Assembly (NCBI GenBank): GCA_012862575.1
Contig: BLSF01000028.1
Span: 434,001 to 498,000 of the forward strand
Source: Parietichytrium sp. I65-24A
Taxonomy: Eukaryota > Sar > Bigyra > Thraustochytrida > Thraustochytriidae
Length of the DNA: 64,000 nt
Direction of reading: 5' to 3'
The notes under the pieces are model-generated. The model had not been told where the DNA came from and ran no database searches. It saw nothing but the letters and a program-made list of their open reading frames with translations. Positions 394 to 62,951 of the stretch are shown in pieces (positions within the stretch are counted from its first letter, which is position 1; every line of letters starts with the position of its first letter). Position numbers and translations under genes: made by a program.

Positions 394-1818
394 TTATTTG
401 TCACAAGAGAGATGAAATCCAAGGAGAATCCAATTTGAGGTGCCGCATATAATCCCACAAATGGCCAAGGCAGCGAACGGCCCAATACGCGTCCTGGCAC
501 TCGCAGGATGTACGCCACGGCTCTGAAAAATGGCTGCCTTGATCATGTCAGAGGCGCTCTCCAGCAAGATTGCTAAAAGCAGCTTTGCAAAGTCTTTCTT
601 GACGTTAGACCATCCGGTCAAAAAAAAACTTAATAGCCAAGCACCAAATAGAGAGGTCATATCACCGAGCGATTCATACGACAGCAAGGCGGCATGAATT
701 TCGAAGAAGGCTTCTCTTGAATAATCTCTAGATTTCACTGCTCCGACCTCGGCAAGCACCTTTTGAAGAAATTTGGCCTGTCGATTGTCAACGGGTGTGA
801 CATTTGGATGAGCGCAGCCGTCAAGCGCTGGTGAAGGCCCCTGGGTCTCGAGTGGGCTGATGGATTTGGATGTTGCCCCTCGTCTGCCCACTTTTAGCAT
901 CAGGTGTACGAAAATCGCCGCTCCGACATTTTCGACGACCAATTGAAGAATGGATGTGACTACGAACTGTCTGATGTTCTGCACCCAAAACAAGCCCATG
1001 TAAGCGGGAAACGAGAGGGAACATACAATAAGCAGCTCGGCCCTTCCGAGCACCTCGCACAGACGTGAAGTCTCTGTCTGGTTGGTCGTAGCTTTGCTTG
1101 ACAGTCGGAGAGCAAGACGCCTAGTGCTCAGTCGGCTCGCAATTTGCAAAGCTGGATAGATCACCCCGATAACGACTGTTTGCATCCACCCAGTGGTGTT
1201 GACTGCGAACACGACATATAGTTCAATGAGCACTGCAACGCCAAGCAGAAATAGGAAAACGCTGAGCTCCGTCAAAGTTCGTTTCACACACGTGCGAAGC
1301 GACTTGCCGGAGAACGCTGTCTTGGCAAAGAGTGGTAAGCAAGAGGACACATACAAGAAAAGATGGCCTTCTAGAGCCTCTACTTTGAACGAAGGCACTT
1401 TTACAAAGGCAATAAATACCGTGATCCACATTGGCATTCCAAAAAGGAGAAAGTATCTCAATCTTCTCTTGAGCTGCTCTGAGGAAGCGGTGGCTGCAAG
1501 GAGCCCCAAACTCATAGCTTCGGTGCATAGAGAGATTATGAACGCGTACGCGAGCCAAGAGCCGTCTCTGGAATTCGGGACTTGGGAGCGCGCCTCGCAG
1601 TAGCCCGCTGATATATTTTGAAACCCGTTTTGAGTGACGTACGCTTGGATCACGTCAAACGAGCAGCTTTGTGCAATTGACTGCTCGAGTCTATCTCGAA
1701 TCAGTTTACTCAACGCAGCAAAGACACAGAAGCCCAAGGTTGCTAGGATGACAGCCTTTGCAACTGTCCGTACGCACCAGCCCGCAAGCAGAACTGCTTC
1801 TCTAGGTGCCTTCCCCAT
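394..1818 (-). CDS. Unknown polytopic membrane protein (474 aa)
   Basis: I do not recognise this protein. It is a single exon starting at ATG 1818. Hydrophobic segments occur at about residues 12-37, 90-107, 120-140, 150-165, 185-210, 212-230, 265-285, 290-310, 390-412 and 445-465, so eight to ten membrane spans are likely. Two long cytosolic-looking stretches carry basic and polar residues, around 235-255 and 315-370. There is no transporter signature I can name and no clear signal peptide beyond the first span. It is transcribed convergently towards the HAUS1-like gene. A role as a channel, transporter or membrane organiser cannot be told apart from the sequence. Confidence 0.7.
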   Translation of the reverse strand: MGKAPREAVLLAGWCVRTVAKAVILATLGFCVFAALSKLIRDRLEQSIAQSCSFDVIQAYVTQNGFQNISAGYCEARSQVPNSRDGSWLAYAFIISLCTEAMSLGLLAATASSEQLKRRLRYFLLFGMPMWITVFIAFVKVPSFKVEALEGHLFLYVSSCLPLFAKTAFSGKSLRTCVKRTLTELSVFLFLLGVAVLIELYVVFAVNTTGWMQTVVIGVIYPALQIASRLSTRRLALRLSSKATTNQTETSRLCEVLGRAELLIVCSLSFPAYMGLFWVQNIRQFVVTSILQLVVENVGAAIFVHLMLKVGRRGATSKSISPLETQGPSPALDGCAHPNVTPVDNRQAKFLQKVLAEVGAVKSRDYSREAFFEIHAALLSYESLGDMTSLFGAWLLSFFLTGWSNVKKDFAKLLLAILLESASDMIKAAIFQSRGVHPASARTRIGPFAALAICGIICGTSNWILLGFHLSCDK

Positions 1819-12811: not shown

Positions 12812-15800
12812 ATGAAGAAGGGGTCGGCAATTTTGATATTGGCTGCCGTCCTGCAGTCGCTAGTGGGTGTGAGCTCCGGGAACGTCATCAATGACTACCT
12901 TGCAGACAAAGTGTTCGGCATCAGCCCTGGCCCTTGCCCCAACGAGAATGACAAATGCACTGGAGACTATGCCAACCTTCCAGAGTCCGTAAAAAACATC
13001 AGAATCTGCCTCATCGGCAGCATCTGTCTACGTATGGGGGATTTACTTCGGGCCGGAGTGGTCGAAATTTGGAATCTGACCTGCAAGAAAATATCATTCG
13101 GAGATGTGATCCTCAACTTTGATCCGTCGGAAGCCACCGACACGCAAGCTAATTCGGAGATCGACTTGCAAGAATTCCGGCTAGCTTGCTCCTTCACTGC
13201 AAACATCATAGATTTGGTCATCGCGGTGTTCGACAACGACAACACCTCAGAAGAGTCAGAATTAACCCGTATCAGGGTGAACACCAGAAATACTCAGATT
13301 TCCTTCCCGAAGAGCAACAGCGCCTCCGGTGTAGTAAACTCTGACCTCCAGATTAAACTCAGGACCGACACTGCGAATGGAGAGACTTTTGCGACCGATC
13401 TGCCTTTTGAAGTCCGCATTCCTGCAGATTCGTGTGAGATCGGAGTTGGCCTTGGCTTGAACCTCGGCCTTGATGGCCTCAAGTTCGAGGTTTTGATTCT
13501 TGGCACTTATGTAAACCTAACGTCGGCCATAGCACTCTTGGAATTCATTTCCGGCATCAGTCTGGATGCTCTTCTCACGCTTATTGTCAACGTAGTTGAG
13601 GCGTTTGTCGGAGCCATTATCTGTCAGTTCGCAGAGGAGCTTGCTATCCTTCCAGTCAGCCCAGGGTTCCCCACTGAGAGGAACGGGATCCTCAATGAAG
13701 TTTTGCAGGATATCATCAAAGCTACAATTGACGAGTACGCCGCAACTCCCGCCATCAACCCGGAGGATTTTGACTCTGACGACGCAATTCGTGAGGACGG
13801 AGTGACGTTTAATCAGCTGCAGTATTCCACCAACTTTGCAGAGAGTACGGTCGCAGAGCTTGCATCTGCAGGGCTGAATGGATGGCTTGGAGCTACAAGC
13901 CAGACCGAAGGTTACGAGGGCAAGCTTGTGGTCAATGAGCTCGTAGATCAAGTCACTGAACCGAATGGTGAGCTGTACCTTGACCTGGTTGGTCTTGACC
14001 TCGCCCCTACGGTTTCAATGGATTTATTGGTAGCCACCGTCACGACGAGGTTGAACTCGTTGAAACTAGCCGGACTCAATACGTTCAAAATTTTTCAAAT
14101 TATGCAAAACAGCTATGACGTCGAAGATCCCGCGCAACGTATGCGCTACACGTTCGTGAACGCTCTCAAGATCGGGGAAGCTTCTATGGAGGTGGAAATG
14201 TACATCAAGTTAGCGCCAGGAGAGTGGGTGACCAGTGGAACGCACGAGGAGGAGTTCACCTTCAAGTTTTCCATTGGTGCCAAAGACATGCTCTTTGATG
14301 TTGCAACCCGCGTCATGTTCAACTTGGACGAGCTCGACGAGATAAAATTGGGCCAGATAACCAACCTCGCCAAGCAATTGGATCCCGACGCTGGTTTGGA
14401 TGGCGTGTCAAGCTATTTGACGGATGTGTTGCAGTGCGTTGGGCCATCTCTCTACCGCGTCAACTTGACAGATTTGGAGATCAGCATTGGCGAGTTGGGA
14501 GAAGCAAAAGTGTCTGGCGATGTCACTAGCCAGCTCATTGAGGACAGTGTCGAGTACGGTTCACACGTCCTACGTGGCGCTTTGAGCACCAAACTTGTCG
14601 GCCTTTCGCGTAGTATCATTCGGACAACGGCCAACGACCTTTTGAAGGAGTATGTGACAGACCCTGGTACGCAGGGAGCACCCGACTGCCCCGCGTATGT
14701 TCCGCCAGCAGCAGATGAAAAGTTTGTGATCGACTTTGCGAGTGGTATTTTCGCTTCCGTTTACAAATTGATCGATGACTCTGTCGGCGGGGATCCCATC
14801 GTGGACAGCGGAACTGACATCAACGAACTCGTAGATGTGGTCGTCAAGTATCTAGTAGACACTTCCACCAACTTTCCTCTTCAGAGTTCCGGCAACAAAG
14901 GGGACTGGGAGCTAGCCATTCAATACAAAGACTTTGCACGCCTGCCTGCCTACCAGCGCCCTGCAGATGTGGTCGAGCTTGAAGACGTGTTCATCATCAA
15001 CTTGGACTCCATTTACAAGCTACATGCCACCCAGGTGAGCTCCGAAACTGGTGGTGTAAACATTGATCTGGGCGTCGGTGGGTTGCTTGACGGAATGAAT
15101 GGCACCAACTCTCTCACGTTCCAATTTCCCCTCAACGTGTTTAGAAATGAGCGCGTAGATGAGTCGATCCCAAGCATCAAGGAGGAGTTTGTATTCGGCC
15201 TAGAGCTGTCCGAGATCGACGTGAGCCTGGCGCTGACCCAGGTCATTCTGGCCACCACCTTCCTGGAGTCGCTCTATGTCAGCCAGATCCAGGATTTGTC
15301 CTGCATCCTTGGCGGCCTTGATACAATAGAATTCAAGGATGACTACCGCGATCTCAATCTTGGCAAAATGGTGCTAACTCTTGAGCGCAGCGGAGTGTCA
15401 GACAATCAGAACTCGCTCAACGTTGCGTTGACGAGTCTCAAGAACAACATTGACACCCAACCTGACTACGCCAGGTTTCGGACTCTGTTGAACACGATCA
15501 TGAAAAACTCCTTTTCTATGGCTCTTGACGCGATCGAAACTATACCATCAATTTTTGGACGCGGAGTCGTGACGCCTGACAATTGCAGCAGCGCCACCAA
15601 CCCTCTCGATCTGCTCCTAGAATTGACTACAATTCAGGTGCCAAATGCCACCGCTACCATCGAGCTTTGCCTCACTCCAGTGGATTTTGCCACCCTCCCA
15701 ACGGTCGCGGAGTACGAAAGCAGTGTGCAGTATTCTGAGGAAAACGGTGACGTCGTTTTGGACCTTGAACAGAGCGCTGTCGTCACCTTCGTGTCCGAAC

Positions 15801-18800
15801 TCATTACCAATAATTTCCTCAACGGTGGCTTGGATGTTATTTTTCAAAGGCTTGCCAACTCGACCGGAACTGTCATTGGAGATGCCTTCACGTTCGATGA
15901 GGAGGATCCAACTATTGTTAACATGGCTCTTCCGCTAAGCGCATTGGGACTCAAATTTACCAATGATGACATCATCCCTGGGCTCATTGTTGACGCAGGT
16001 TCGTTTACGATTCACGGGGTTAACAAGTTCCTGGAAAATGTGGAGATCATCAAGCCCGTAGGAACGTTCACAACAAGGAATACTGTCCGCTTCAACCAAA
16101 ACGCAACCCTGGACGTGACTCTGAGCGCTTACGTCGAGATGGATCGCTCTGCCTTGGACGGTGAGGGTGCTACGGGTAAAGTTCGTGAAATTGTGGACTT
16201 TGATTTCACAATGACAGACTTCCTCTTTGAACTGGATTTGGTGACAGCCTTCAACACCACCGCGATTGGAGAGATGACACTCAGCCATTTTGTCTACATT
16301 GACGAAGATCAGACCGTTTACCTCGGCGACAATTGGCTGGACTGCTTCTTGGCATCATTTTTCCCTCATGGATTGAGCATTCGCAAGATGGAGATTGATG
16401 TACAAAAGGTTTCAAAGGTAGCCGTGTCCAGCCGCACCAACGAGATCTTGAGTGAAGAAATGGAACAAGTTTTCGTGGCCATTGCAGATATCGTGGTGGA
16501 CTTTTACAAAGATTCACTTACGAGCATTGGTCAGAATTGCGTTCGCGATTTTGCAAACCAGAAAGCCTTGGAGTACCAGCTTGCAGGAAGCTGCCCGAGC
16601 AGTCCAAATGCGCCAAATTTGACTGATGCCAACCAGATTCTCCGATTCAGCACACAGGAGGACTTCAACTTGTTCCAGGACTTGTTTACGGAGTACTTTG
16701 TCGCCGACAATTTCGCTAACGTCAACGCTTTGCTCACTGATGTCCTCGGCCCGAGCGTATTCTTTGACAAATCCAAGGGGGAGGAGTTTCTATACGAAGA
16801 TCTCCCACTTGTATACTACGGGGCGAGCTACGGCTCGATCGACGTTGGTCTTGCGAACGTCCAGGTGACGAATTTAGGATTTTCCAACCTTCGAATTGCT
16901 GAACCCGTCGGCCGAACACCTGCGGCGTCTTCTAGCGAGTTCACCGCAGAAGAGGAGCCTTATGTGACGCTCACGCAAGCAACTCTGCCAGGCCCATTCA
17001 CACTGCAGTTTGATCTGGTTTTCAATGCCCGTGAGCTTTTCACCGGGTACGCGGACATGAAGAACAGCATCCAGGTCAAACTCTCCTTGGAAAACTTTGA
17101 CTTTGGCATCCTTGCGCTCAGCAAGATCAACATGGTGGATGCTGCAATCATGCAGTTCAAGACTGCGTCGACCTTGACCGACCTTCCGTGTTTGCTCGTG
17201 CCCCTAGAGGCGTTCGAGCCAATGGACTTCAACCTCTCGGCTAGCGCGATCTCAGTGCAGCTAGACTGCTTAGATACGTGTGATCTCCCGTTCTTCAAAG
17301 AGCTGGAGAAAACGGGAATTGCCTTCTCCAGCAGCAACGGGGAGCAAGTCGGTATGTTGCTCGCTGAGTTCGTCAACTGGGGCACTGCTTACTTGGAAAA
17401 AATCAATGCCCAGGAGTACGTAGATATTGAACTTGCCACTGCGGAAAAAACTTGCGACGAAATCATTGACGCGATCTCTGGCCTATTTCAGGACGCCGAG
17501 GATCCAGACGACATTGCCTCCAAAATGGGAGTCGGCTTTGCTGGGCTCACCTTGGCGTTGTTTGGCGCGTACAGTTGCGTTTACCCTGTGCACAAGATCC
17601 GAAGGAAGCAGACTCTGTTGAAGAACTTGGCCGCAAACGAAAAGGATCTCACCAATATGGGAGCTGAAGCAAGCTCGGAGGAAATGGCTCGTATTATGGC
17701 TTCTACTGAGATGAGTATGAAGTCCATCTTCCAACATCCTGTGACGCCAGTTGTGGCAAAGTTTCTTGTGCCTTTCGTGTGTCTCCTCAACATTGGCTTG
17801 GTAGTGCTGGCGGTGGCTTATTCTGGTGCACTGTCCTTGGTAATCAAAATAACTCTCTTTGGGGCCGAGTCTACGCTGTGGGAAGTCGTCCCTCTAACAA
17901 TCGCGTCGTTGATTAACACGATGTGGGAGGAGATGGGGTGGTATGTTGGTATCGTCATTGCGCTGGCAACTGTGGTGTTCCCCATCCTTCAGAACATGGC
18001 GCTGCTGGGTCTCTGGTTCACTCCAAACACCATTCTTAAAAATCATCAGAAGCGAACCGTGGTCACAGCCCTTGAGCTCACTGGTAAAGTGGGTTTCATC
18101 TTGATTTTTGTGCTAGCAGTCACAATTGCAGCGTTGTATACCGTCTTTAATGCCGCAGATTACCAGTATCTGGACTTTGTTCCTTCCAACACAGCAGGAT
18201 TTGAGCTGAACGTCACTGCAAAGCGGGGCATGATCCTACTCTCTCTTATTGCTTGCATCACGCTGGTTTTGGGCCACACAGTGAGCTATTACCTTGACAG
18301 AACGGCAAACAACAACAAGAAGGTGCAAGATGAAATCGACGGAATCCGTGATTCGCGCAAAGAACCAACAAAGGCACTCACAGCAAAACGGCGAATCATT
18401 GACCATGTCTTCATGGGTCGCGATAAGAGTGGTTACCAAAGGAAAATGAAGCGCAGTATGGGCTTGGCAGTCACTGGAGCAGCTCTACTTGGTCTGCTGT
18501 TGGTGATCGCCGGGATATTTGTTCCGGTCATTACGTTCGAAATTAAAGGTGTGGCGGGTCTTCTTTTGGAGGAGATCAGCAATGAGTCACCAACTCTCGA
18601 CACCCCTTTGCAATTCAAAACTTTCTCGCTCTTTGGAATTGGAGCAGGCTTGTCGAAGTCCCCTAAAGTTGATGCAGCGACCACATTGGGAACGATTTTC
18701 TTACAAATCGCCTTCTTCGTGGTTTTTATGCTCGCCCCGATCTTCCAGGGAATCTGCGTGGCGATCATCATGCTCGCGCCGCTTCACTTGAGAAGTGCTC

Positions 18801-19675
18801 GCCTCGTGATGTGGTTCGAAAGGGTTTGCGTCTTCTGGAACTCGCTCGATCTGGCGTGCGTAACCCTCGCTGCGATGCTGATCATCATCTCGCCGCTCGT
18901 GCAAACGTACGTCAACTTTATTTCCTCTGTGCTCGTGACGTCCGACTTGTGCAAGACACTTGAAGACCCGCTGAAGCTCATTGTTCCGTCCGAGGATGAC
19001 GCCTTTTGCATGGACACCCAGGCCAAGCTCGAGCCAGGCTACGCAGTCCTGGTCATCGGAACCATGATACAGATTGGCGCCTCGTTCGTCTTTTCCATCC
19101 TCGCTGGAGCTGCCCTGTCCGACCGCTACTATGCAGCATACCACAACATTCGTTCCGATGCTAAACCAAAGCGCCTGAATCGCTTGTCGGTCAAGATCCT
19201 CAACCTCTGTACTCAGGTGGTTCCAGGTACAGATAGGGAAGAGCCTGAGCAATCAACGAGCTACTCCAGTCGTGGAAACCAAGGTCAATCTGTCTTCCGA
19301 CAAGAAGAACTCCGCGATCACGACCCAAGCATCTGCTCGTCAATATTTTCTTATTATGGCCGCTGCTGCTCTTCAAAGAACGACGACCAAATGAGTGACA
19401 TGGAGAGTCGGATGATGTCTTGGCGAGGTCGATTTGAGGGAGCCAACAGCTCCGCCTCAAAAAGAACGTCCGAGAACCCACTTTTTGATGGTCCAGCAGG
19501 AGGTGACTCCACAACTAGTGCGCGAAGAAACCCGTTTGACTCCTACGTGCGTAGCAGCAGAGACCCTCCTCCACGCCCATCGAACAAGTACTCACTTGCC
19601 TCGTTCGCCAGTCGCGCTACGAGAAGCAGCGCAGACTACAGCAGCCGCGTGCGTGCAGACAGCGTTGAGGTGTAA
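12812..19675 (+). CDS. Giant secretory-pathway membrane protein: repeated extracytoplasmic modules plus two PqiA/LetA-like four-helix domains (2287 aa)
   Basis: One uninterrupted frame from ATG 12812. Residues 1-22 form a signal peptide. About 1550 extracytoplasmic residues follow, with Asn-x-Ser/Thr sites and scattered Cys. They appear to be about five related modules of roughly 300 residues (near 23-310, 311-655, 656-940, 941-1280 and 1281-1545). Each alternates amphipathic strands with helices and ends in a Cys-containing helical stretch. A span at 1573-1595 leads to two groups of four spans, 1650-1830 and 1884-2105. They share VVFPILQ (1721-1727) and MLAPIFQ (1973-1979), each followed about 28-31 residues later by the start of the next helix. 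This layout matches bacterial PqiA/LetA proteins, which work with MCE proteins in lipid transport between membranes. The zinc ribbons of LetA are not evident. The last 180 residues are a Ser/Arg-rich cytosolic tail with an NPFD motif at 2240. Lipid handling is inference. The modules could be TULIP-like, but I cannot show that. Confidence 0.75.
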   Translation: MKKGSAILILAAVLQSLVGVSSGNVINDYLADKVFGISPGPCPNENDKCTGDYANLPESVKNIRICLIGSICLRMGDLLRAGVVEIWNLTCKKISFGDVILNFDPSEATDTQANSEIDLQEFRLACSFTANIIDLVIAVFDNDNTSEESELTRIRVNTRNTQISFPKSNSASGVVNSDLQIKLRTDTANGETFATDLPFEVRIPADSCEIGVGLGLNLGLDGLKFEVLILGTYVNLTSAIALLEFISGISLDALLTLIVNVVEAFVGAIICQFAEELAILPVSPGFPTERNGILNEVLQDIIKATIDEYAATPAINPEDFDSDDAIREDGVTFNQLQYSTNFAESTVAELASAGLNGWLGATSQTEGYEGKLVVNELVDQVTEPNGELYLDLVGLDLAPTVSMDLLVATVTTRLNSLKLAGLNTFKIFQIMQNSYDVEDPAQRMRYTFVNALKIGEASMEVEMYIKLAPGEWVTSGTHEEEFTFKFSIGAKDMLFDVATRVMFNLDELDEIKLGQITNLAKQLDPDAGLDGVSSYLTDVLQCVGPSLYRVNLTDLEISIGELGEAKVSGDVTSQLIEDSVEYGSHVLRGALSTKLVGLSRSIIRTTANDLLKEYVTDPGTQGAPDCPAYVPPAADEKFVIDFASGIFASVYKLIDDSVGGDPIVDSGTDINELVDVVVKYLVDTSTNFPLQSSGNKGDWELAIQYKDFARLPAYQRPADVVELEDVFIINLDSIYKLHATQVSSETGGVNIDLGVGGLLDGMNGTNSLTFQFPLNVFRNERVDESIPSIKEEFVFGLELSEIDVSLALTQVILATTFLESLYVSQIQDLSCILGGLDTIEFKDDYRDLNLGKMVLTLERSGVSDNQNSLNVALTSLKNNIDTQPDYARFRTLLNTIMKNSFSMALDAIETIPSIFGRGVVTPDNCSSATNPLDLLLELTTIQVPNATATIELCLTPVDFATLPTVAEYESSVQYSEENGDVVLDLEQSAVVTFVSELITNNFLNGGLDVIFQRLANSTGTVIGDAFTFDEEDPTIVNMALPLSALGLKFTNDDIIPGLIVDAGSFTIHGVNKFLENVEIIKPVGTFTTRNTVRFNQNATLDVTLSAYVEMDRSALDGEGATGKVREIVDFDFTMTDFLFELDLVTAFNTTAIGEMTLSHFVYIDEDQTVYLGDNWLDCFLASFFPHGLSIRKMEIDVQKVSKVAVSSRTNEILSEEMEQVFVAIADIVVDFYKDSLTSIGQNCVRDFANQKALEYQLAGSCPSSPNAPNLTDANQILRFSTQEDFNLFQDLFTEYFVADNFANVNALLTDVLGPSVFFDKSKGEEFLYEDLPLVYYGASYGSIDVGLANVQVTNLGFSNLRIAEPVGRTPAASSSEFTAEEEPYVTLTQATLPGPFTLQFDLVFNARELFTGYADMKNSIQVKLSLENFDFGILALSKINMVDAAIMQFKTASTLTDLPCLLVPLEAFEPMDFNLSASAISVQLDCLDTCDLPFFKELEKTGIAFSSSNGEQVGMLLAEFVNWGTAYLEKINAQEYVDIELATAEKTCDEIIDAISGLFQDAEDPDDIASKMGVGFAGLTLALFGAYSCVYPVHKIRRKQTLLKNLAANEKDLTNMGAEASSEEMARIMASTEMSMKSIFQHPVTPVVAKFLVPFVCLLNIGLVVLAVAYSGALSLVIKITLFGAESTLWEVVPLTIASLINTMWEEMGWYVGIVIALATVVFPILQNMALLGLWFTPNTILKNHQKRTVVTALELTGKVGFILIFVLAVTIAALYTVFNAADYQYLDFVPSNTAGFELNVTAKRGMILLSLIACITLVLGHTVSYYLDRTANNNKKVQDEIDGIRDSRKEPTKALTAKRRIIDHVFMGRDKSGYQRKMKRSMGLAVTGAALLGLLLVIAGIFVPVITFEIKGVAGLLLEEISNESPTLDTPLQFKTFSLFGIGAGLSKSPKVDAATTLGTIFLQIAFFVVFMLAPIFQGICVAIIMLAPLHLRSARLVMWFERVCVFWNSLDLACVTLAAMLIIISPLVQTYVNFISSVLVTSDLCKTLEDPLKLIVPSEDDAFCMDTQAKLEPGYAVLVIGTMIQIGASFVFSILAGAALSDRYYAAYHNIRSDAKPKRLNRLSVKILNLCTQVVPGTDREEPEQSTSYSSRGNQGQSVFRQEELRDHDPSICSSIFSYYGRCCSSKNDDQMSDMESRMMSWRGRFEGANSSASKRTSENPLFDGPAGGDSTTSARRNPFDSYVRSSRDPPPRPSNKYSLASFASRATRSSADYSSRVRADSVEV

Positions 19676-23420: not shown

Positions 23421-25098
23421 GACGCGCTCCTGCGTTGGACAAACCTTGCACATTCATTACACGTAGTTTCTCGACAGTGAATTGCATTTCAGGCTGTATA
23501 CTAGTAGACTTTTACATAATATTTTTTCCAAACAATCAGACTGTGTTGTCACCAGACAAGTTTGGTCTCGAAGTATGCCAGAAAAAGGTATGTACTAGTA
23601 GTATTCACCGCCAGTAAAATGTGGCACTGAGTACTTACCAATACCTTTGGGCAATGGTTGGTTGCATTGCAAATGTAAATTGCGAGTCTCTGCATTGCAA
23701 TAATTAATCCAACATGTACAACGTCGTGGATGAGGAATCAGTCGCTCGTTGAGGAGCCCATTGGCACGAATGGCACGTGGGGCTTCGCATGCCGTCATGT
23801 TGCGCCAGCAACTTGGTGGGCTTGGTAATCGCAGCCAGTGCGCGACTTGCGCGCGAGTGGTGCTGGCCACTTCGTTGGTACTCGAGAATTAAATATTACT
23901 GAGTACTCGTATTGAACTGACTGACAAGTCATTCAAGACTTGCTCTCTGGCTAATAACCAGCACTAACCTGCTCTTGGACACTTCAATATGACTTGGCTA
24001 CAGCCGTTCCGCTGAAAAAGTACATTTTACTCTTTTTACATGTGATCACGTGATAGACAGTTAGTCACACGGTGAACGAAAGTTGCGGCTTCTGAAAGTC
24101 ACGTAGTAGAAGTAGAGTGGGGAACAGTGTGGAAGGTCGACTTCGCCTCTTTCGTTCACAGTCAGCAGCTGTCAGTTTCAAGGTTTTGAGTTGGGTTTGT
24201 CATCGACCGTTCCTTACTCTAAAGGAAACAAGACAAGAACTCTCTTTTGGTGGAAGTACTTCAGCACCAGACAGAGACAGACATCTATCTACTCGATACG
24301 TAGTACTAATTACTCAGTACTATCGTCTTCTTTTTTTCTCTCTGAGTCGAACTGGCGAAGATGTGGTTTTAGATGATTGAGGAAAGGAAACCGCTGGTAG
24401 AGCAAGCACACCATCAACAGCTAGCGTCCCGTGCGGTTCGTTGTTCTTGCTACCCCGTCACTAGATATAGCTAAATCGCTGGCAACACACCGAGTGTGCG
24501 AGTAAGGCAGAAATGAAAGAGACCGAGACTAGTGAGCCAGTTAAAAGCGCTTATAGGGACTCAGTAGATTCTCAGTAGCAGAGCAAATTTGTTTCTGGGC
24601 TCTCTGTCTACCGTCAAGCCAAGCAGGATAAGGAGGGTCGGGTGGTTTGTTTGTCAGCTTGTCTGGCTTCCGCGTTTCCTCTGTCATACGTTACAAAACT
24701 TACAGTTAGTGTGAGGGACTGGCAATCAATACACTGTCAGTCAGTCCTGTCTGGTTTGTCTCAATGAAACAGTTCAGAAATCAAAGCTCGCCAATCGGAA
24801 ACACACAGAAACACGGAAAGAGACTCAGGAACAGTTGGCGGGTGGTGTCACACGGAGTGTTCGGCACGGATCCCTGCGTTCGGCGGGTGCGGGCACAATC
24901 CAATTCTGTGGCTCGTCGCTTCGCAGAGCGGGCTCAGCTGCGCGACCGGCAGGGGACGTCTTGGAGGCTGCGAAAAGAAAAAGAAAAAAGAGGAACTTGT
25001 TGTGACGAATCGCTTGGAGAAGCAAATTGACACAGGACACTTTCCAGCAAAAGAGCGCAGACGAGGTTGTGACGACAGTTTTTGGTTTGTGTCGCAAT
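23421..25098. other. Intergenic region, 1.7 kb
   Basis: No supported gene. It contains GCAATGG/ATTGCAAT-type words around 23650-23705, a GGTACTCGAG half-element near 23876 and dispersed AGTACT words to about 24320. The stretch 24500-25098 is probably promoter and 5' leader of the desaturase gene. The frame into that gene is open from 25027, but the first ATG is at 25099. Confidence 0.55.
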
Positions 25099-28000
25099 AT
25101 GTCTGCGCCGAGGAGGATGCGGGTTCCCAATCCCGCGGAAAAGGACTTCGCCGCAGCTGGCGAAGAGCGCTCTAGCTTTGAGCAGGTCATGTCAAGCGTT
25201 CTCTCCAAGAAAGGGCGTAGCGGAGGAGCAAAGAAGGGGAATCTTTCGCTAGCCGAATACACGCTATCTCTCATTGTCCTTTTCGGGGGATGGATGGTAG
25301 CTTTGTTTGGAATCGCCGGGCAAGTTCGACCAGCCGGTGTCACTGCCTTCGCGATCACTGCCGCCGCTGGACTGGGGTTTATGGTGTTCAGCTGGTTCAT
25401 TTATGGTTCAAACATCCAAACTCTTATGTGGGTGGCGGATCTGATGGAGGATCGTGTGTTGCGAACAAGGGAGAACTGGAGAAATGAGACCTTGCGTTCA
25501 TTGGTCGAAGTGGGTTCTTGGTTGCACATTATGTTTCGAATTTATGCAATCACCGAAAGCGCAGTTATTGCTGCGTTTTGCGGTTCCGTGGTCGGTGCGT
25601 TCTGTGTTGTATTAGGTGATTATTTTACAGACTACACGCGCGAGGCCGAGGAACGATTGAGAGCTCAGGCCGAAAGCAGTTTGAATAGTTATCGCTATCT
25701 TCGTAGTATTTCGGAAGATGGATTTCGACCTGCAGAGGAAAGATCCCAGCATTCTCGTGGAGGTCCAGGGCCTCTTGAAGCAGTACAGAGTGAGGCGAAA
25801 GAGTCCCATGCGGAGGATGAAAGTAGCATTAGTGCTGGTGCTCGCCCAGCCGAGCCAAGGGTTTGGGCACACGAGGAGTTTGCCTCTGTTTTTTACACCC
25901 CACAATTTGTTTCTCTTCTCGTCTCGTTCGCGCTGGCGGTCTCCCTATATCATGTAAAAGATAGCCAGGACCTTGGAGTGGCTGCAATTTTAACCACGCT
26001 GGCGAACGTTGCTTTCATTACAGCCGAGCAGCTTCTTATGCTCTGGCGCCCCACTCGTTGGGCGGCGGTCATTCTTCATGACAGGGTCATGAACGTGGTC
26101 TACAACTGGGAGCATAAAACCATTCGGTCCGGATTTGAGACATGCTTCTACCTGAGCTCGATCTTTTTTTGCTACGCGGTAACCGAGAACGTGCCATTTG
26201 CCGTACTGGTTGGCACACTTGCGGGGATGGGTATCGTTTTAACGTCGTCGTGGCTCGGCATTGGCGTCCACCCATCGCAGGATGACGCCTCTCGCCTTAC
26301 CAAAGAAACAGAGCGCGGGGTCTTCATGCTCGCCATCTTTGGTTGGGCATGTGCGATCTTGTTGTACACTATCTACATATACTCACGCAGCAGCGTGCTT
26401 GCGCTGGGCCTAGTGTTGCCCACTGGAATCGCAATCATTTGCCTGTCCGAGCTAGCTGTATCGCACTGCGCGATGAACTCCAGCTTTTTGGTCGAAGACA
26501 CAAGTTCCGGTCCTTCTCCTCCCTCGCAGAGTCAAGATAGATCTGCCGCTGTAGATTTCCCGCGGCTGGAAAGCAGTCTGCAAGAGAACGCCAAACCAAA
26601 GAGTCTCAAATCCAAGTGGTCTGTTTTCCAGTATACCATAGGCTCGCTCCTGTTGCCTTCGCAAGCGTGGATGTCGGATTCGTCGGACAGAATTCACAGA
26701 CTTTCTTCTGTAACCTTTGAGCAGGTGGAGTCCGATAGCCGTGGTGGCGATCCCGTTGAGAAAGTCAAGAAGATATTTGCGAAAAAATCAACTCGAGTCA
26801 TCTCTCGAGACGAGATGTGCGGCAAAAGCTGGGTTATCATCGAAGGCTTTGTCTTTGACGTGGGCCAGTTCGCGAGCTCCCATCCAGGGGGTGAGGGACT
26901 ACTGCTTGATTATTCTAATAGGCAAGCTGATATCTCTGACCAATTTGCTGCATTTCACCACCCTGCCACGTACAATCGATTGATCCCACTTCTTGTGGGC
27001 AAGTTTCAAGAACAGTCCGCGTCGCAGCCAACCGACGATACAGACTTGGGCGAATCACATGCCGCTTTTCGCCGAGCATCGTCTGAATACCGCATGCTTC
27101 GTTCGTACCTTTGGATGAACGGGTATTTCGACGGGGCTGAGAGTGATTATGACTCCGCAAGGAGCTGTGCACACCAACACCTTGTAGTGTTCTCGCTTGG
27201 AGTCCTTGCTGCATGCCAAATTGCGTTGTTGGGGCACTTGCTGTCCAACACCCCTGCTGAAGCGCAAAACACAATGTGGTTCACATGTCGTACATATCTC
27301 CAGTGTATATTGGCTGGTGCCTGCTTGGGATTTTTCTGGCAGCAAGGCGCTTTCATTGCTCATGATGCTCTCCATAATGGTGTTGTGAATCGAACCAAGG
27401 AGGGCCGGCCAAAGTCACCGTTCATTCCTAACAATGTTCTGGGCTGGTTCCACGGCAGTGTTTTGTTTGGAATCAGTTCTGCAATGTGGCTTGACGAGCA
27501 TTCCGTACACCACGCAATGACAATGCGTCCGTGCCAGGATGCTCAATTCAACTATCTTCCACTCTGGTGCGTATCTATGAAAGAGCTCTCCACTCGATTT
27601 TGGCAAGACATGCGTGAATCATTCTTTCTGATGCCGATGATTACAAAGCTGTTGGTTTCCATTCAACATTATACTTTGCTGCCACTAGCAGTCCTCGTGG
27701 GAAGGTTCAACTTTTATTTGATCAATATCGCGTACGCTGTCAAAAACGGAATCTACTACGACTTGCTTGGGATGGCGATATACTGGATGGCGTTTTCCGT
27801 GCTTTTATTTCAAATTAGTGGTCACCTCGGACTTCAAATTTGCTTTGTGTTGGTTTCGCACTGGACTGTCGGCATCTTGCATGTTCAGCTTCTTATTAAC
27901 CACCTCGCGACTGATGCATTCACTGACAAGGAGGAAGAGGACTTGGAGTTTTTCTCGTTCCAAGTCAAAACTACCAGGAACATCGACAGCACCGAGAACT

Positions 28001-28221
28001 CTGACTGGTTCCATGGAGGGCTTCAGTACCAGATAGAACATCATCTCTTCCCTCAGCTGCCACGCCATCGCTTAGCTCTTGTGAAGCCTGCGGTGCTCGA
28101 GATCTGTCAGAGAAATGGACTGCATTACGAGTCGGTCTCCTTTGTGCGGGCCGTAAAACTCTCCCTGTTGAACTTTCGTGAGCTTGCGAATGAAGTTTGG
28201 GAGGGACGTCTTACAATTTAA
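25099..28221 (+). CDS. Cytochrome b5-fused front-end fatty-acid or sphingolipid desaturase with an extra duplicated N-terminal membrane domain (1040 aa)
   Basis: The start is the first ATG, at 25099. Residues 560-1040 form a complete front-end desaturase. The cytochrome b5 domain has the heme motif HPGG at 595-598 and a second His at 620 or 621. The three histidine boxes are HDALH (755-759), HSVHH (801-805) and QIEHH (978-982), where Gln at the start of the third box is the mark of front-end enzymes. Such enzymes insert a double bond between an existing one and the carboxyl end of acyl chains (delta-4, -5, -6) or desaturate sphingoid bases (delta-8). The chemistry is clear but the regioselectivity is not. 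Unusually, about 470 residues precede this unit, containing roughly eight membrane spans arranged as two copies of one module offset by 210 residues. I know no front-end desaturase with this addition. It is in tandem with an SLC44 gene. Confidence 0.88.
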   Translation: MSAPRRMRVPNPAEKDFAAAGEERSSFEQVMSSVLSKKGRSGGAKKGNLSLAEYTLSLIVLFGGWMVALFGIAGQVRPAGVTAFAITAAAGLGFMVFSWFIYGSNIQTLMWVADLMEDRVLRTRENWRNETLRSLVEVGSWLHIMFRIYAITESAVIAAFCGSVVGAFCVVLGDYFTDYTREAEERLRAQAESSLNSYRYLRSISEDGFRPAEERSQHSRGGPGPLEAVQSEAKESHAEDESSISAGARPAEPRVWAHEEFASVFYTPQFVSLLVSFALAVSLYHVKDSQDLGVAAILTTLANVAFITAEQLLMLWRPTRWAAVILHDRVMNVVYNWEHKTIRSGFETCFYLSSIFFCYAVTENVPFAVLVGTLAGMGIVLTSSWLGIGVHPSQDDASRLTKETERGVFMLAIFGWACAILLYTIYIYSRSSVLALGLVLPTGIAIICLSELAVSHCAMNSSFLVEDTSSGPSPPSQSQDRSAAVDFPRLESSLQENAKPKSLKSKWSVFQYTIGSLLLPSQAWMSDSSDRIHRLSSVTFEQVESDSRGGDPVEKVKKIFAKKSTRVISRDEMCGKSWVIIEGFVFDVGQFASSHPGGEGLLLDYSNRQADISDQFAAFHHPATYNRLIPLLVGKFQEQSASQPTDDTDLGESHAAFRRASSEYRMLRSYLWMNGYFDGAESDYDSARSCAHQHLVVFSLGVLAACQIALLGHLLSNTPAEAQNTMWFTCRTYLQCILAGACLGFFWQQGAFIAHDALHNGVVNRTKEGRPKSPFIPNNVLGWFHGSVLFGISSAMWLDEHSVHHAMTMRPCQDAQFNYLPLWCVSMKELSTRFWQDMRESFFLMPMITKLLVSIQHYTLLPLAVLVGRFNFYLINIAYAVKNGIYYDLLGMAIYWMAFSVLLFQISGHLGLQICFVLVSHWTVGILHVQLLINHLATDAFTDKEEEDLEFFSFQVKTTRNIDSTENSDWFHGGLQYQIEHHLFPQLPRHRLALVKPAVLEICQRNGLHYESVSFVRAVKLSLLNFRELANEVWEGRLTI

Positions 28222-48055: not shown

Positions 48056-49408
48056 TCAGAATGCTCCTTTGACGGAGGCTCTGAAAAGAATGAGGTTCGA
48101 GGATCCTGTGTTTTGGACACTGATTTTTGCCTCGGCAGAGACAAAAAAGATATCGCCACGCTTAGCATTTTGGGCTGTCTCATTTCCAGCATCGGAGAGC
48201 TGCCCTTCGCCTTCAAGCACAAGGATGACACACGCAAAGTTGGAGGAGTCGAGCGCGAGGCTTTCGCCTTGGGAGAGCACTACCCGCTCAAGCTGAAACT
48301 CATCCACAGCGGGATCGGGCGGACTGTAAAGCTTGCTGTTCTTGCTGATTTCCTTGCCTTCAAGCAGGTTTCCAGGATGAAACTCAGCGCCCTCGTGTTT
48401 TGGTTGCCGATAAGTAAGCATTGAAATCAGTGTATCAACATCACGGAGTTTTGGCGTCAGTCCTGCGCGCACAACGTTGTCTGAACATGCCATAATCTCA
48501 GCGCAATCACCAGCAAGGTACGCGTGTGGTTCGTTGGCGCCAAGGAACACAGCCTGGCCAGGCTCGAGAACCCTGTAGCACATCAAGTATGCGCAAAATA
48601 CGCCCACATCGCCAGGGTATTGGCTGATTAGGCGAAGAACAAGCTTGTCCACCTCGTTGAGACTATCTTGCGCATTCAAGCGCTTGTCTAGCTTCTCAAC
48701 CTGGGCCTTCACGAGGTCTGCTTGCGAAGACATGAGAGCTGCAAAGATTGTCTTCAAGTTCGCCTTTTGAGTACTCTCTTCCGAGCTGCCAAGCTTACTG
48801 CTATCTCCCAGCAAGGCCTTGCAATCTTCATCAGCGCAAAGGAGCTCTTCAAGTTCTGGGGTGCGATTGATATGGCCCACAACTTCATCCAGCGGCAAGA
48901 ACCCTGCAAGCGCCTCGAAAGGGGTGATTGCGCAAGCCATTTCAGGCTTGTGATTTGGGTCTTTGTAAATGTCTGGATAGTTCTCAAACAGTTTTTCAGC
49001 AGATGACTTGTCCGGGTGAGCCTGGGCAAAAAAAAAGGTGAACTGGGTTAGAAACTCTCGATGACAGAATGTTTTCGGCAAGGGTCAGGAATAACGTACC
49101 TGAATTGAAAGAGCGGTCTCCACGGAGAGAATTTTGAACAGATAAGGCAGCCCGCCACTCGCATCTTGTGACCCTACTTTCATGGTGTTCGGATTCTCGG
49201 CAAGGAAGTCAGAGAGAAGAACCTTTTCTCCGGACTCAAGAATGACTTTGGATGGTCCGTTTGGATGAGTGCCCATCCACAGTTCCGCATATGGTGAGCT
49301 AGGATCAATTTCTGTGCCTTGCTCCTTCACGAGCTGGGCCACCGTGCTCTCGGCTCCGATCTTGCCCCAGGCATACTTTTGTGCGGCACACTCCAAGCGA
49401 AGCAACAT
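48056..49408 (-). CDS. MPI: Mannose-6-phosphate isomerase, type I (424 aa, one intron)
   Basis: Exons 49408-49100 and 49021-48056 are joined by a 78-nt intron (GTACGT to TTGCCCAG, phase 0). Splicing restores the metal-binding motif ETALSIQAHPDK across the junction. The enzyme interconverts fructose-6-phosphate and mannose-6-phosphate and so supplies GDP-mannose for glycosylation and cell-wall or scale sugars. The zinc ligands are visible: Gln and His in SIQAHPDK, Glu in NHKPEMACAI and His in ANEPHAYLAGD. The N-terminal LRLECAAQKYAWGKIG is the usual family start, and the length matches other eukaryotic MPI proteins. The protein is cytosolic, with no targeting signal. The gene is divergent from the cytochrome b561 gene, 1 kb away. 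Confidence 0.95.
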
Positions 49409-60710: not shown

Positions 60711-60992
60711 AGATTGATAATTTACAATGTTTTAAAATAATGGCTGACATAATCTAATCTTCCCCAGCCGTCCTAATTTTATCTCACTCTAGCTCTAGCT
60801 ACTATCTCACTAATTACTACTAAGACTTTGCCGCGCTTTGAGGGACAACGGCTATGCTTTCACTGCGTGACAAAGACGTCGCCTCAGGCTCGGTGGTATA
60901 TGCGAGACAGAGAGAGCCAATGCGCTCGCGCTCAAGATAAAATCTGTGACGTTGGTGGCGTGGAGGCAAGAGCCTCGCTACGGGAGAACGTC
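60711..60992. other. Short spacer
   Basis: An AT-rich 3' flank of the secreted-protein gene. The following frame is open from 60828 and has an in-frame ATG at 60900 in a weak context. I use the better-placed ATG at 60993. Confidence 0.45.
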
Positions 60993-62951
60993 ATGAGCGC
61001 CAAAGTCAAACCACAGCCAGGCGCAAGTAGTGGACGACTCTTTGAGAATGGCAAGCCTTCGCAAAGTAAACGTGAGTCGTCTTGCGCGTCACAAGCCTCT
61101 ATGGCCCGAACGTGCCAAACAGTCGCATTGCTGATCTGTGCCGCAGTTTGCATCCTCTTGAATTTCGCCGTCATCTCTTTTGTGGAGTGGAATACTGGGA
61201 ACGAGACATCATACACAGTGCAGGTTGCCTTGAAGAATACAGAAGAGAATTGCCCATCATTGGCCGGCGGAAATCTTTTCTCTCAGCTCATTTCGAGCGT
61301 TTCTTTAGGAGGGGGGTCCAACCGCGAATGGGAAGATGCACTCCTGTTTGGCAACTCTCTGGTAGAAAAAGTCGTGCATGTGTTTGAAGAAGGGGACGAC
61401 TCAAACGTGGTGTATTTTCGTATGCTGAGCAAGCGTTACGTTGCAATGATTCCAAGGTGGTTAGTTCGAGTGCTGGCACTCAACACGCTGTCGCGTTCAA
61501 AAGACAGTCTTTTAATCGTGGTGCAGCCGAGTACAAGTAATGTCTCAACTTGCGCCGCTAGCTTTCAGATGGGTGAAAACGCGGCAGCAGCTCTGGCGGT
61601 CTATCTTCTGCAGCAGGCAGGCGAATCCGACATAGAAGTGTACTCCGCCGCGGAGAACGGCACCTCTTACAGTTATGAGCTGACTTGCGATGTTTACAGT
61701 GCTTCCGTTCCCTCCGATATGTGCTCGACTGCGAGTCTCTCTCGTCGAATCGATACCACATATGCTATCTTTCTGGGGATGTGGGCATGCATCGTAGTGG
61801 TTTGCTTGATTTGGTTTGCATTGTTAGTCTCTTTCTTTGAAAAAGACCGTCTTCAAAGCTCAAAGAATAAGCTTGTACAATGTGTACAGCATGATTCCAC
61901 CGGGGGTTTGCAACCAAGCGCCAAGGTGCCTAATGGAGAAGAGAAAATCCCCCAAGGTGAGGCAAAGAAAATTGAGCCGGCACCCTCGTCTATGGCTTCG
62001 CAGATTTTCGCGGCGATCAATGTTTTGGATCTGCTGTTTGTCAGCAAGTCTGTAGAGAATGATCTTTCCACCCTACTCAAGAATGGTCTGCGAGCTTGTG
62101 TCAGAGACACCTTGAAGAGATTTCTAGTATTGTATGCCCCTGCGATATCACCAAGCATCGTTCTTTTGCTTGCCGGCTGCGGCTCTGATGAGACCAATTG
62201 CGCTCGTAAAACCGAACTTCAGGTGCCCATATTTTACACAATTCTGGCGTACACTGTCTTTATTGTTGGATTTCTGCTAGGAACAATTTGGTCCGTGTTC
62301 CCTGGGAATGTATACCGCTACGCGACCCGTTTCTTGGTCGGTGTGATGAGTAGCTCTTCGCTGGTCCTGCTCGTTACGCATGTGCTATGGCTACTCGTCG
62401 CTTGTACTGTGGAGCCTGTTGCCGCAGGAAGCAAGATTATTTCAATTGTTTCCATTGGAATCTATGCGTGGCAAACCTGGAGAAAAGTGGAGCTGTACCG
62501 CAAAAATGCGGCGAAACGGCTTCTTGAAACAAGGCAAAATCTGAACCAAGTGGAAGCGGAGCTGGCGAAAGCCGGCTTCAGCAGGGAACACATTTTCTCA
62601 TTGGTATCCATGACAACCTTGATCCTCGTGCTGTTGTTCATCTGGTTCATGACCTGTTCCGTAGTCTTTTACGCACACCGTGCAGAATCGGAATCTGCTG
62701 TGTTCTCTGTCATTTTTGGCGTTTTCTTGCCAGCTTGCTCTGCTGTATTGCACGTGATGACCACGATTCGCTGCCGAGCTGCAGCAGACTCTTTGACTCC
62801 TGCAGTAGACTTCTTTTCAGGTGTTGCTGACGCAGGGACAGGTGCAAACTTCAGTCTCACTGCTGCTGATATCGCAGCAGAACTGAAAAAGTATGCCCAA
62901 GTCGCACCCTTGATAGTTACCGGTACCACCAAGCAGTCGGATGTCTCATAG
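60993..62951 (+). CDS. Unknown polytopic membrane protein (652 aa)
   Basis: The ATG at 60993 gives 652 residues; ATG 60900 would add 31. After a polar leader of about 35 residues there is a first span (VALLICAAVCILLNFAVISF). A large loop of about 195 residues with N-glycosylation sites and four Cys is probably extracytoplasmic. A second span follows (YAIFLGMWACIVVVCLIW), then a basic cytosolic loop of about 110 residues. About six further spans run to near residue 600. The two-span-with-big-loop start recalls sensor or receptor-like proteins, but no cyclase, kinase or GPCR signature is visible. It resembles the unknown protein at 394-1818 only in general layout. I do not recognise a family. 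Confidence 0.65.
   Translation: MSAKVKPQPGASSGRLFENGKPSQSKRESSCASQASMARTCQTVALLICAAVCILLNFAVISFVEWNTGNETSYTVQVALKNTEENCPSLAGGNLFSQLISSVSLGGGSNREWEDALLFGNSLVEKVVHVFEEGDDSNVVYFRMLSKRYVAMIPRWLVRVLALNTLSRSKDSLLIVVQPSTSNVSTCAASFQMGENAAAALAVYLLQQAGESDIEVYSAAENGTSYSYELTCDVYSASVPSDMCSTASLSRRIDTTYAIFLGMWACIVVVCLIWFALLVSFFEKDRLQSSKNKLVQCVQHDSTGGLQPSAKVPNGEEKIPQGEAKKIEPAPSSMASQIFAAINVLDLLFVSKSVENDLSTLLKNGLRACVRDTLKRFLVLYAPAISPSIVLLLAGCGSDETNCARKTELQVPIFYTILAYTVFIVGFLLGTIWSVFPGNVYRYATRFLVGVMSSSSLVLLVTHVLWLLVACTVEPVAAGSKIISIVSIGIYAWQTWRKVELYRKNAAKRLLETRQNLNQVEAELAKAGFSREHIFSLVSMTTLILVLLFIWFMTCSVVFYAHRAESESAVFSVIFGVFLPACSAVLHVMTTIRCRAAADSLTPAVDFFSGVADAGTGANFSLTAADIAAELKKYAQVAPLIVTGTTKQSDVS

Follow-up and report, generated by a model that had tools for sequence, protein, structure and literature searches.

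The window, that is, the whole 64,000-nt stretch of DNA that was analysed, carries a genuine gene at 12812-19675 on the forward strand. The gene runs in a single frame for 2287 codons without a stop, a length with a chance probability of ~2e-48 under equal base use. When the frame was cut into 16 blocks, each of 150 codons, the in-frame coding score, determined against four Pfam-recognised neighbours, was above zero in 14; the last two blocks, which correspond to the C-terminal tail, scored weakly (0.06 and 0.0). An earlier note on this DNA had proposed one uninterrupted gene with a single-chain architecture, and the 2287-codon frame bears this out. The features assigned to the gene and its product are listed below.

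12812-19675, forward strand: whole coding frame, 2287 aa and stop (ORF call, coding score)
12812-12880, forward strand: signal-peptide-like N-terminus, aa 1-23 (hydropathy maximum at aa 4-22; predicted cleavage site)
12881-13801, forward strand: module A1, aa 24-330, estimated limits (weak match to A3)
13802-14731, forward strand: module B1, aa 331-640, estimated limits (match to B2)
14732-15676, forward strand: module A2, aa 641-955, estimated limits (match to A3)
15677-16666, forward strand: module B2, aa 956-1285, estimated limits (match to B1)
16667-17521, forward strand: module A3, aa 1286-1570, estimated limits, adjoining the membrane (match to A2)
17525-17587, forward strand: predicted lead-in span TM0, aa 1572-1592 (weak hydropathy, strong charge bias)
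17747-18283, forward strand: first predicted four-span set, aa 1646-1824 (hydropathy; PqiA-related)
17891-18133, forward strand: match to Pfam PF04403 (PqiA), aa 1694-1774, model positions 34-114 of 156 (Pfam search)
17972-17992, forward strand: motif VVFPILQ, aa 1721-1727 (translation)
18467-19105, forward strand: second predicted four-span set, aa 1886-2098 (hydropathy; putative PqiA kinship)
18728-18748, forward strand: motif MLAPIFQ, aa 1973-1979 (translation)
19106-19672, forward strand: predicted cytoplasmic tail, aa 2099-2287, 189 residues (topology prediction)

The genes around this frame are of eukaryotic type, in agreement with the setting assumed earlier. Pfam analysis identified a CHD-like remodeller (chromo and SNF2 domains), a HOOK-domain protein, a mitochondrial carrier, a choline-transporter-like protein, a NIPA transporter, a cytochrome-b5 desaturase, and WW and F-box/WD40 proteins. 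No tRNA or Rfam match was found in the 64,000 nt. The desaturase frame (25027-28221, forward strand) encodes a front-end enzyme with Cyt-b5 at aa 599-659 and FA_desaturase at aa 760-1036; its first ~590 residues are without a Pfam match at E 0.001 and seem rich in membrane spans, so that the frame may represent an unusual fusion or a pair of genes joined in one reading. Some genes in the window may have introns, because a mannose-6-phosphate isomerase frame (48056-49081, reverse strand) lacks the start of its catalytic domain, the Pfam match beginning at model position 99 of 143. Two further long frames (394-1818, reverse strand, and 60828-62951, forward strand) appear to encode multi-span membrane proteins and gave no Pfam match at E 0.01.

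Hydropathy prediction placed a signal-peptide-like stretch at residues 4-22, consistent with the signal peptide proposed before, and nine spans in the C-terminal part: a weak lead-in span followed by two four-span sets. The spans lie at about 1646-1670, 1707-1732, 1753-1778 and 1803-1824 in the first set and at about 1886-1908, 1957-1990, 2006-2031 and 2077-2098 in the second. The four predicted cytoplasmic loops contain 8, 3, 16 and 3 Lys and Arg residues, compared with 1, 0, 4 and 3 in the four outer loops. From hydropathy and positive-inside counts, two four-span domains in succession are predicted, their ends lying in the cytoplasm, an arrangement like that of PqiA and LetA. The two sets had been described previously and are retained in this prediction, whereas the lead-in span at 1572-1592 was missing from that description.

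The hydropathy peak of the lead-in span is 1.62, compared with 2.33 for aa 253-271 and 2.32 for span 7. The lead-in span contains no charged residue and is preceded by six acidic residues and followed by five basic ones within 20 positions. Because of this charge-free core and flanking bias, 1572-1592 was taken as a span and 253-271 was not, and the charge bias was also the reason for placing the N-terminal part outside the cytosol. Residues 24-1571 thus probably lie outside the cytosol, and the ~1550 extracytoplasmic residues claimed earlier stand as a prediction from a weak span and its charge. This region of 1548 residues is acidic (Asp and Glu 233, Lys and Arg 92) and contains 20 Cys. Residues 253-271 (13568-13624, forward strand, in module A1) include N260 and E263, with one basic residue among the next 20; this stretch may be a helix that faces lipid, or a span that went unrecognised. 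The number of N-glycosylation sequons in aa 24-1571 (12, compared with a shuffle mean of 12.7; 633 of 1000 shuffles reach 12) is at chance and was dropped as evidence for the secreted side. The membrane part has sequons at 1800 and 1924, both within predicted outer loops. At the other end of the chain, two short motifs lie in the tail, NPF (aa 2240) and PPPRP (aa 2252). Such motifs are EH- and SH3-type ligands in endocytic proteins; here they may occur by chance.

The first four-span set contains a PqiA domain, as judged from profile comparisons. PF04403 was the sole family over a Pfam cut-off in the protein, scoring 26 bits (E 9.9e-6) with the whole protein and 31.1 bits (E 2.6e-7) with the 301-residue fragment aa 1560-1860, against a curated cut-off of 23.8. 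The match covers 81 of the 156 model positions and spans 2 and 3 of the set. The NCBIfam PqiA model topped the matches for aa 1560-1860 (E 0.006), with 15.7 bits against a cut-off of 562; no match to this model was listed for three other queries of the same search.

Bacterial PqiA profiles were built from 68 domains (64 non-redundant domains from retrieved bacterial loci and four E. coli seeds), sorted by their P..K and G.WSM motifs into 35 N-type and 33 C-type domains. The first set scored 21.9 bits with the C-type and 15.6 bits with the N-type profile. None of 500 block shuffles, which preserve local composition, reached either score (best shuffles 8.2 and 9.0, respectively), and the reversed sequence scored -0.4 and -1.0 against the two profiles. 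HHalign gave a similar outcome, with 0 of 60 shuffles for either profile. This ORF had the top domain score in the window, which has 168 ORFs in all, with the C-type, N-type and combined profiles (full-sequence E 3.6e-5, 170 and 5.4e-6, respectively); the best domains of the remaining ORFs, membrane proteins included, stayed at or below 6.0 bits. MAFFT aligned the C-type domain from bacteria across the four spans of the set with 22-27% identity, a figure from a forced global alignment that carries no test. When the whole chain was searched against 299 Pseudomonadota genomes, a single match was returned (E 0.007), to aa 1667-1754. The Pfam match, the shuffle counts and the comparison among ORFs support the PqiA homology proposed earlier for the first set.

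Kinship of the second set to PqiA is plausible. No PF04403 match was found in the fragment holding it. In hmmsearch comparisons with the bacterial profiles, its score was reached by 12 of 500 shuffles for the N-type and by 13 of 500 for the C-type profile; its first span alone was reached by 7 and 6 of 500, and its last three spans alone by 119 and 329 of 500. HHalign gave 0 of 60 shuffles with the N-type and 7 of 60 with the C-type profile. Direct alignment of the two halves was reached by 26 of 500 shuffles, and the scores with three profiles enlarged by the first half by 7, 198 and 56 of 500. The closest local likeness is in the first span, where FVPVITFEIKG resembles the start of bacterial N-type domains. 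The earlier note had asked for a significant PqiA match in both halves as its test; one was obtained for the first half and not for the second. Kinship is consistent with where the set lies, with its topology and with a short motif, but the profile tests are borderline or negative, and the earlier claim for this half was rejected as a proven one. Bacterial PqiA and LetA each carry two domains, and by topology and position the second set would be a degenerate second PqiA domain of the same kind.

The motifs VVFPILQ and MLAPIFQ are placed alike in the two halves as noted before, with P1724 and P1976 lying 252 residues apart. In both, Gln (Q1727 and Q1979) stands where the P..K motif of bacteria has Lys. 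All 33 bacterial C-type domains, which were selected for this Lys, carry it, as do 11 of 35 N-type domains. WSM.D is likewise present in all 33 C-type domains, selected for P..K and G.WSM. Its Asp is absent from the first half, and a W2009-x3-D2013 pattern occurs in the second half only; it was rejected as PqiA evidence, as 440 of 2000 shuffles contain such a pattern. Owing to the loss of the motif Lys in both halves and of the Asp in the first, the transport chemistry may differ. The four cytoplasmic loops contain no Cys, which indicates that the zinc ribbons are absent. Given the lost Lys and zinc ribbons, the protein may work differently from LetA.

Compared with bacterial LetA and PqiA (E. 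coli b1833 and b0950; LetA PDB 9n8w and 9n8x), the protein shares the PF04403 domain and two successive predicted four-span sets. It differs in its lack of zinc-ribbon cysteines, its Gln in place of the P..K Lys in both halves, its extra lead-in span and its huge fused N-terminal part, and PqiA kinship of its second set is putative. The AlphaFold models were too poor for use, both for the membrane part aligned with 11 enterobacterial PqiA rows (mean pLDDT 53.7, pTM 0.34) and for module B2 with its four sister modules (mean pLDDT 35.5, pTM 0.23). Foldseek returned 12 matches for the low-confidence model of the membrane part, none with E <0.001, and LetA was not among them.

From its sequence, the region aa 24-1570 can be divided into about five candidate modules, each 285-330 residues long. 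The limits were estimated from phmmer repeat signals, and the shuffle counts that follow are therefore not independent of them. B1 and B2 (aa 458-628 with 1105-1269) were the sole pair of ten to beat every shuffle (0 of 300), followed by A2/A3 (aa 769-859 with 1397-1484; 3 of 300), A1/A3 (9 of 300) and B2/A3 (18 of 300). The other six pairs were at chance, A1/A2 included (199 of 300). The phmmer self matches reached at most 3.6 bits, with E-values that refer to a one-sequence database. Self-BLASTP of the chain returned the full-length self match and no internal repeat. HHalign among single modules likewise found no repeat (probability at most 0.5%), its two exceptions being residues common to overlapping fragments. 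The repetition described earlier for the N-terminal region is thus weak, with B1 and B2 as its best case and six pairs at chance, and neither self-BLASTP nor HHalign recovers it. A strand-alternation signal in aa 24-1570 was rejected, as 36 of 500 shuffles reach it.

No Pfam family exceeded its cut-off in the N-terminal part, in searches with the whole chain and with fragments. Matches were also inspected up to E 10, a range in which the HMMER filters drop most weak matches. Among them, no MCE family was found with the whole chain and nine fragments, in line with the earlier statement that the bridge part does not look MCE-like, and neither LBP_BPI_CETP nor any other TULIP family was found. 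HHalign of the modules with a BPI/LBP/CETP profile, which was built from three sequences and has little power, gave a probability of at most 1% in all 10 pairs; with 25 shuffles each, the score was reached by none in one pair, by one in another and by at least three in the remaining eight. No credible relative was found in the PDB, in searches that included one with a profile of the module alignment. Several isolated matches were dismissed as noise: Pfam CUB_M02D8_5_4th in one fragment (E 0.0056, below cut-off), phrog_29597 (E 0.004), RpoN in the PDB with the module-alignment profile (E 0.22), and NCBIfam TLTLP_motif (E 0.017) and PCisTranLspir (E 0.18).

The PqiA/LetA family has been described mostly from bacteria, working beside MCE bridges. 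LetB and PqiB, which form these bridges, are separate proteins with MCE domains; the bridge role would be alike here, whereas the present protein matches no MCE family. The genes for PqiA and LetA adjoin genes for phospholipid-binding MCE proteins, and E. coli K-12 without pqiAB is inhibited by 1% lauryl sulfobetaine (PMC5561183). PqiA is described in a portion of another report as having sequence homology to LetA alone and, if it is a transporter, an unknown energy source (PMC10897342). On the eukaryotic side, the available text of one study reports that a few CETP/BPI proteins of protists and amoebae end at the C-terminus in a PqiA domain with 9-12 spans, proposed as a lipid permease (Wong and Levine, 2017; PMC5507252). 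The nine predicted spans found here fall within that range, and the present protein resembles this class in its single chain, its C-terminal PqiA domain and its long N-terminal part predicted to be non-cytosolic. It differs in that the TULIP nature of the N-terminal part is undetectable by sequence, and in size: the part has ~1550 residues, compared with 350-500 for most family members in the text available, which does not give sizes for the PqiA-bearing ones (PMC5507252). Because such proteins have been published, the architecture is already known in outline, and the novelty claimed for the fusion in the earlier note was overstated. Among the matches listed, as judged from titles and abstract openings, no other report on eukaryotic PqiA proteins was found. 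No relative was found in viral contigs (whole chain and membrane part) or in plasmids (tblastn), and an alignment search of viral contigs yielded no bacterial-type PqiA; these collections hold few eukaryotes, and the missing relatives therefore say little on how widespread the protein is.

The best reading is that the protein is a large, divergent member of the CETP/BPI-PqiA class. We consider the odds about even (roughly 0.5) that it is a eukaryotic membrane-anchored lipid-transfer protein. By analogy with the published class, the N-terminal modules would be divergent BPI/CETP-like lipid-binding tubes; BPI, LBP and CETP are proposed as their kin through that class, at a sequence similarity that is not measurable. 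As a PqiA-related membrane part and a long, probably non-cytosolic part are joined in one chain, the protein may move lipids across a gap alone. In the likeliest mechanism, lipid would enter or leave the outer leaflet of an endomembrane or of the plasma membrane by way of the PqiA part. The modules would bind the lipid and pass it along, or deliver it to a particle, a wall or a partner membrane. Membrane part and bridge would then be one chain, instead of LetA plus LetB or PqiA plus PqiB. We infer the lipid transfer itself and likewise its direction, the lipid and the location.

The most serious competitor, itself unlikely, holds that the PqiA part is an anchor or sensor only and that the N-terminal part serves as an ectodomain of the adhesion, wall-binding or receptor type, without lipid carriage. 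It would account for the acidic, cysteine-containing character of this part, which is like that of many surface proteins, for the lack of a detected lipid-binding family in aa 24-1570 and for the lost Lys of the bacterial C-type motif. The published class, which in the text available joins PqiA to lipid-binding domains (PMC5507252), argues against it, as does the placement of bacterial PqiA and LetA genes beside those of phospholipid-binding bridge proteins (PMC5561183, in part). Somewhat less probable is that the modules do bind lipid, but as separate cups that shuttle or store it, for example in collecting lipid from food or prey, and form no continuous conduit; the available discussion of TULIPs allows both tunnel and shuttle models (PMC5507252). 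It is improbable that the N-terminal part has a new fold, or another lipid-bridge fold such as an AsmA/RBG-like beta groove, in place of TULIP. The negative TULIP comparison and the absence of any family over cut-off would fit this, and the sole counterpoint is the presence of CETP/BPI domains in the published class, as described in the text available (PMC5507252).

Slightly less credible still is a topology in which 253-271, and not 1572-1592, is the span, so that most modules would be cytosolic in a protein of the contact-site type. The higher hydropathy peak of 253-271 is in its favour, the loops further on would keep their charge bias, and the sequon number is at chance; N260 and E263 within the stretch, the single basic residue after it, and the uncharged 1572-1592 with its acidic and basic flanks speak against it. 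Finally, a chance likeness of membrane helices, suggested by a match to 81 of 156 model positions in one half of two and by the composition bias of hydrophobic sequence, is very improbable in view of the composition-keeping shuffles with two profiles, the reversed-sequence scores and the low scores of the other ORFs, membrane proteins included.

To return to the membrane-anchored lipid-transfer protein, its most far-reaching form is a one-protein conduit in which about five lipid-binding tubes stand in line on a LetA-like pump or gate with two domains, and in which the bridge is not MCE. We regard this form as doubtful. If it were true, the modules would perhaps alternate between two types (A-B-A-B-A), the chain would span tens of nanometres outside the cytosol, and it would do by itself the job of the bacterial LetA plus LetB tunnel. 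The size of the N-terminal part and the extent of its divergence may be new. A eukaryotic PqiA domain joined to a different large N-terminal part would show the gate working with another bridge, and the fused chain would offer a one-protein system for testing lipid loading and transfer.
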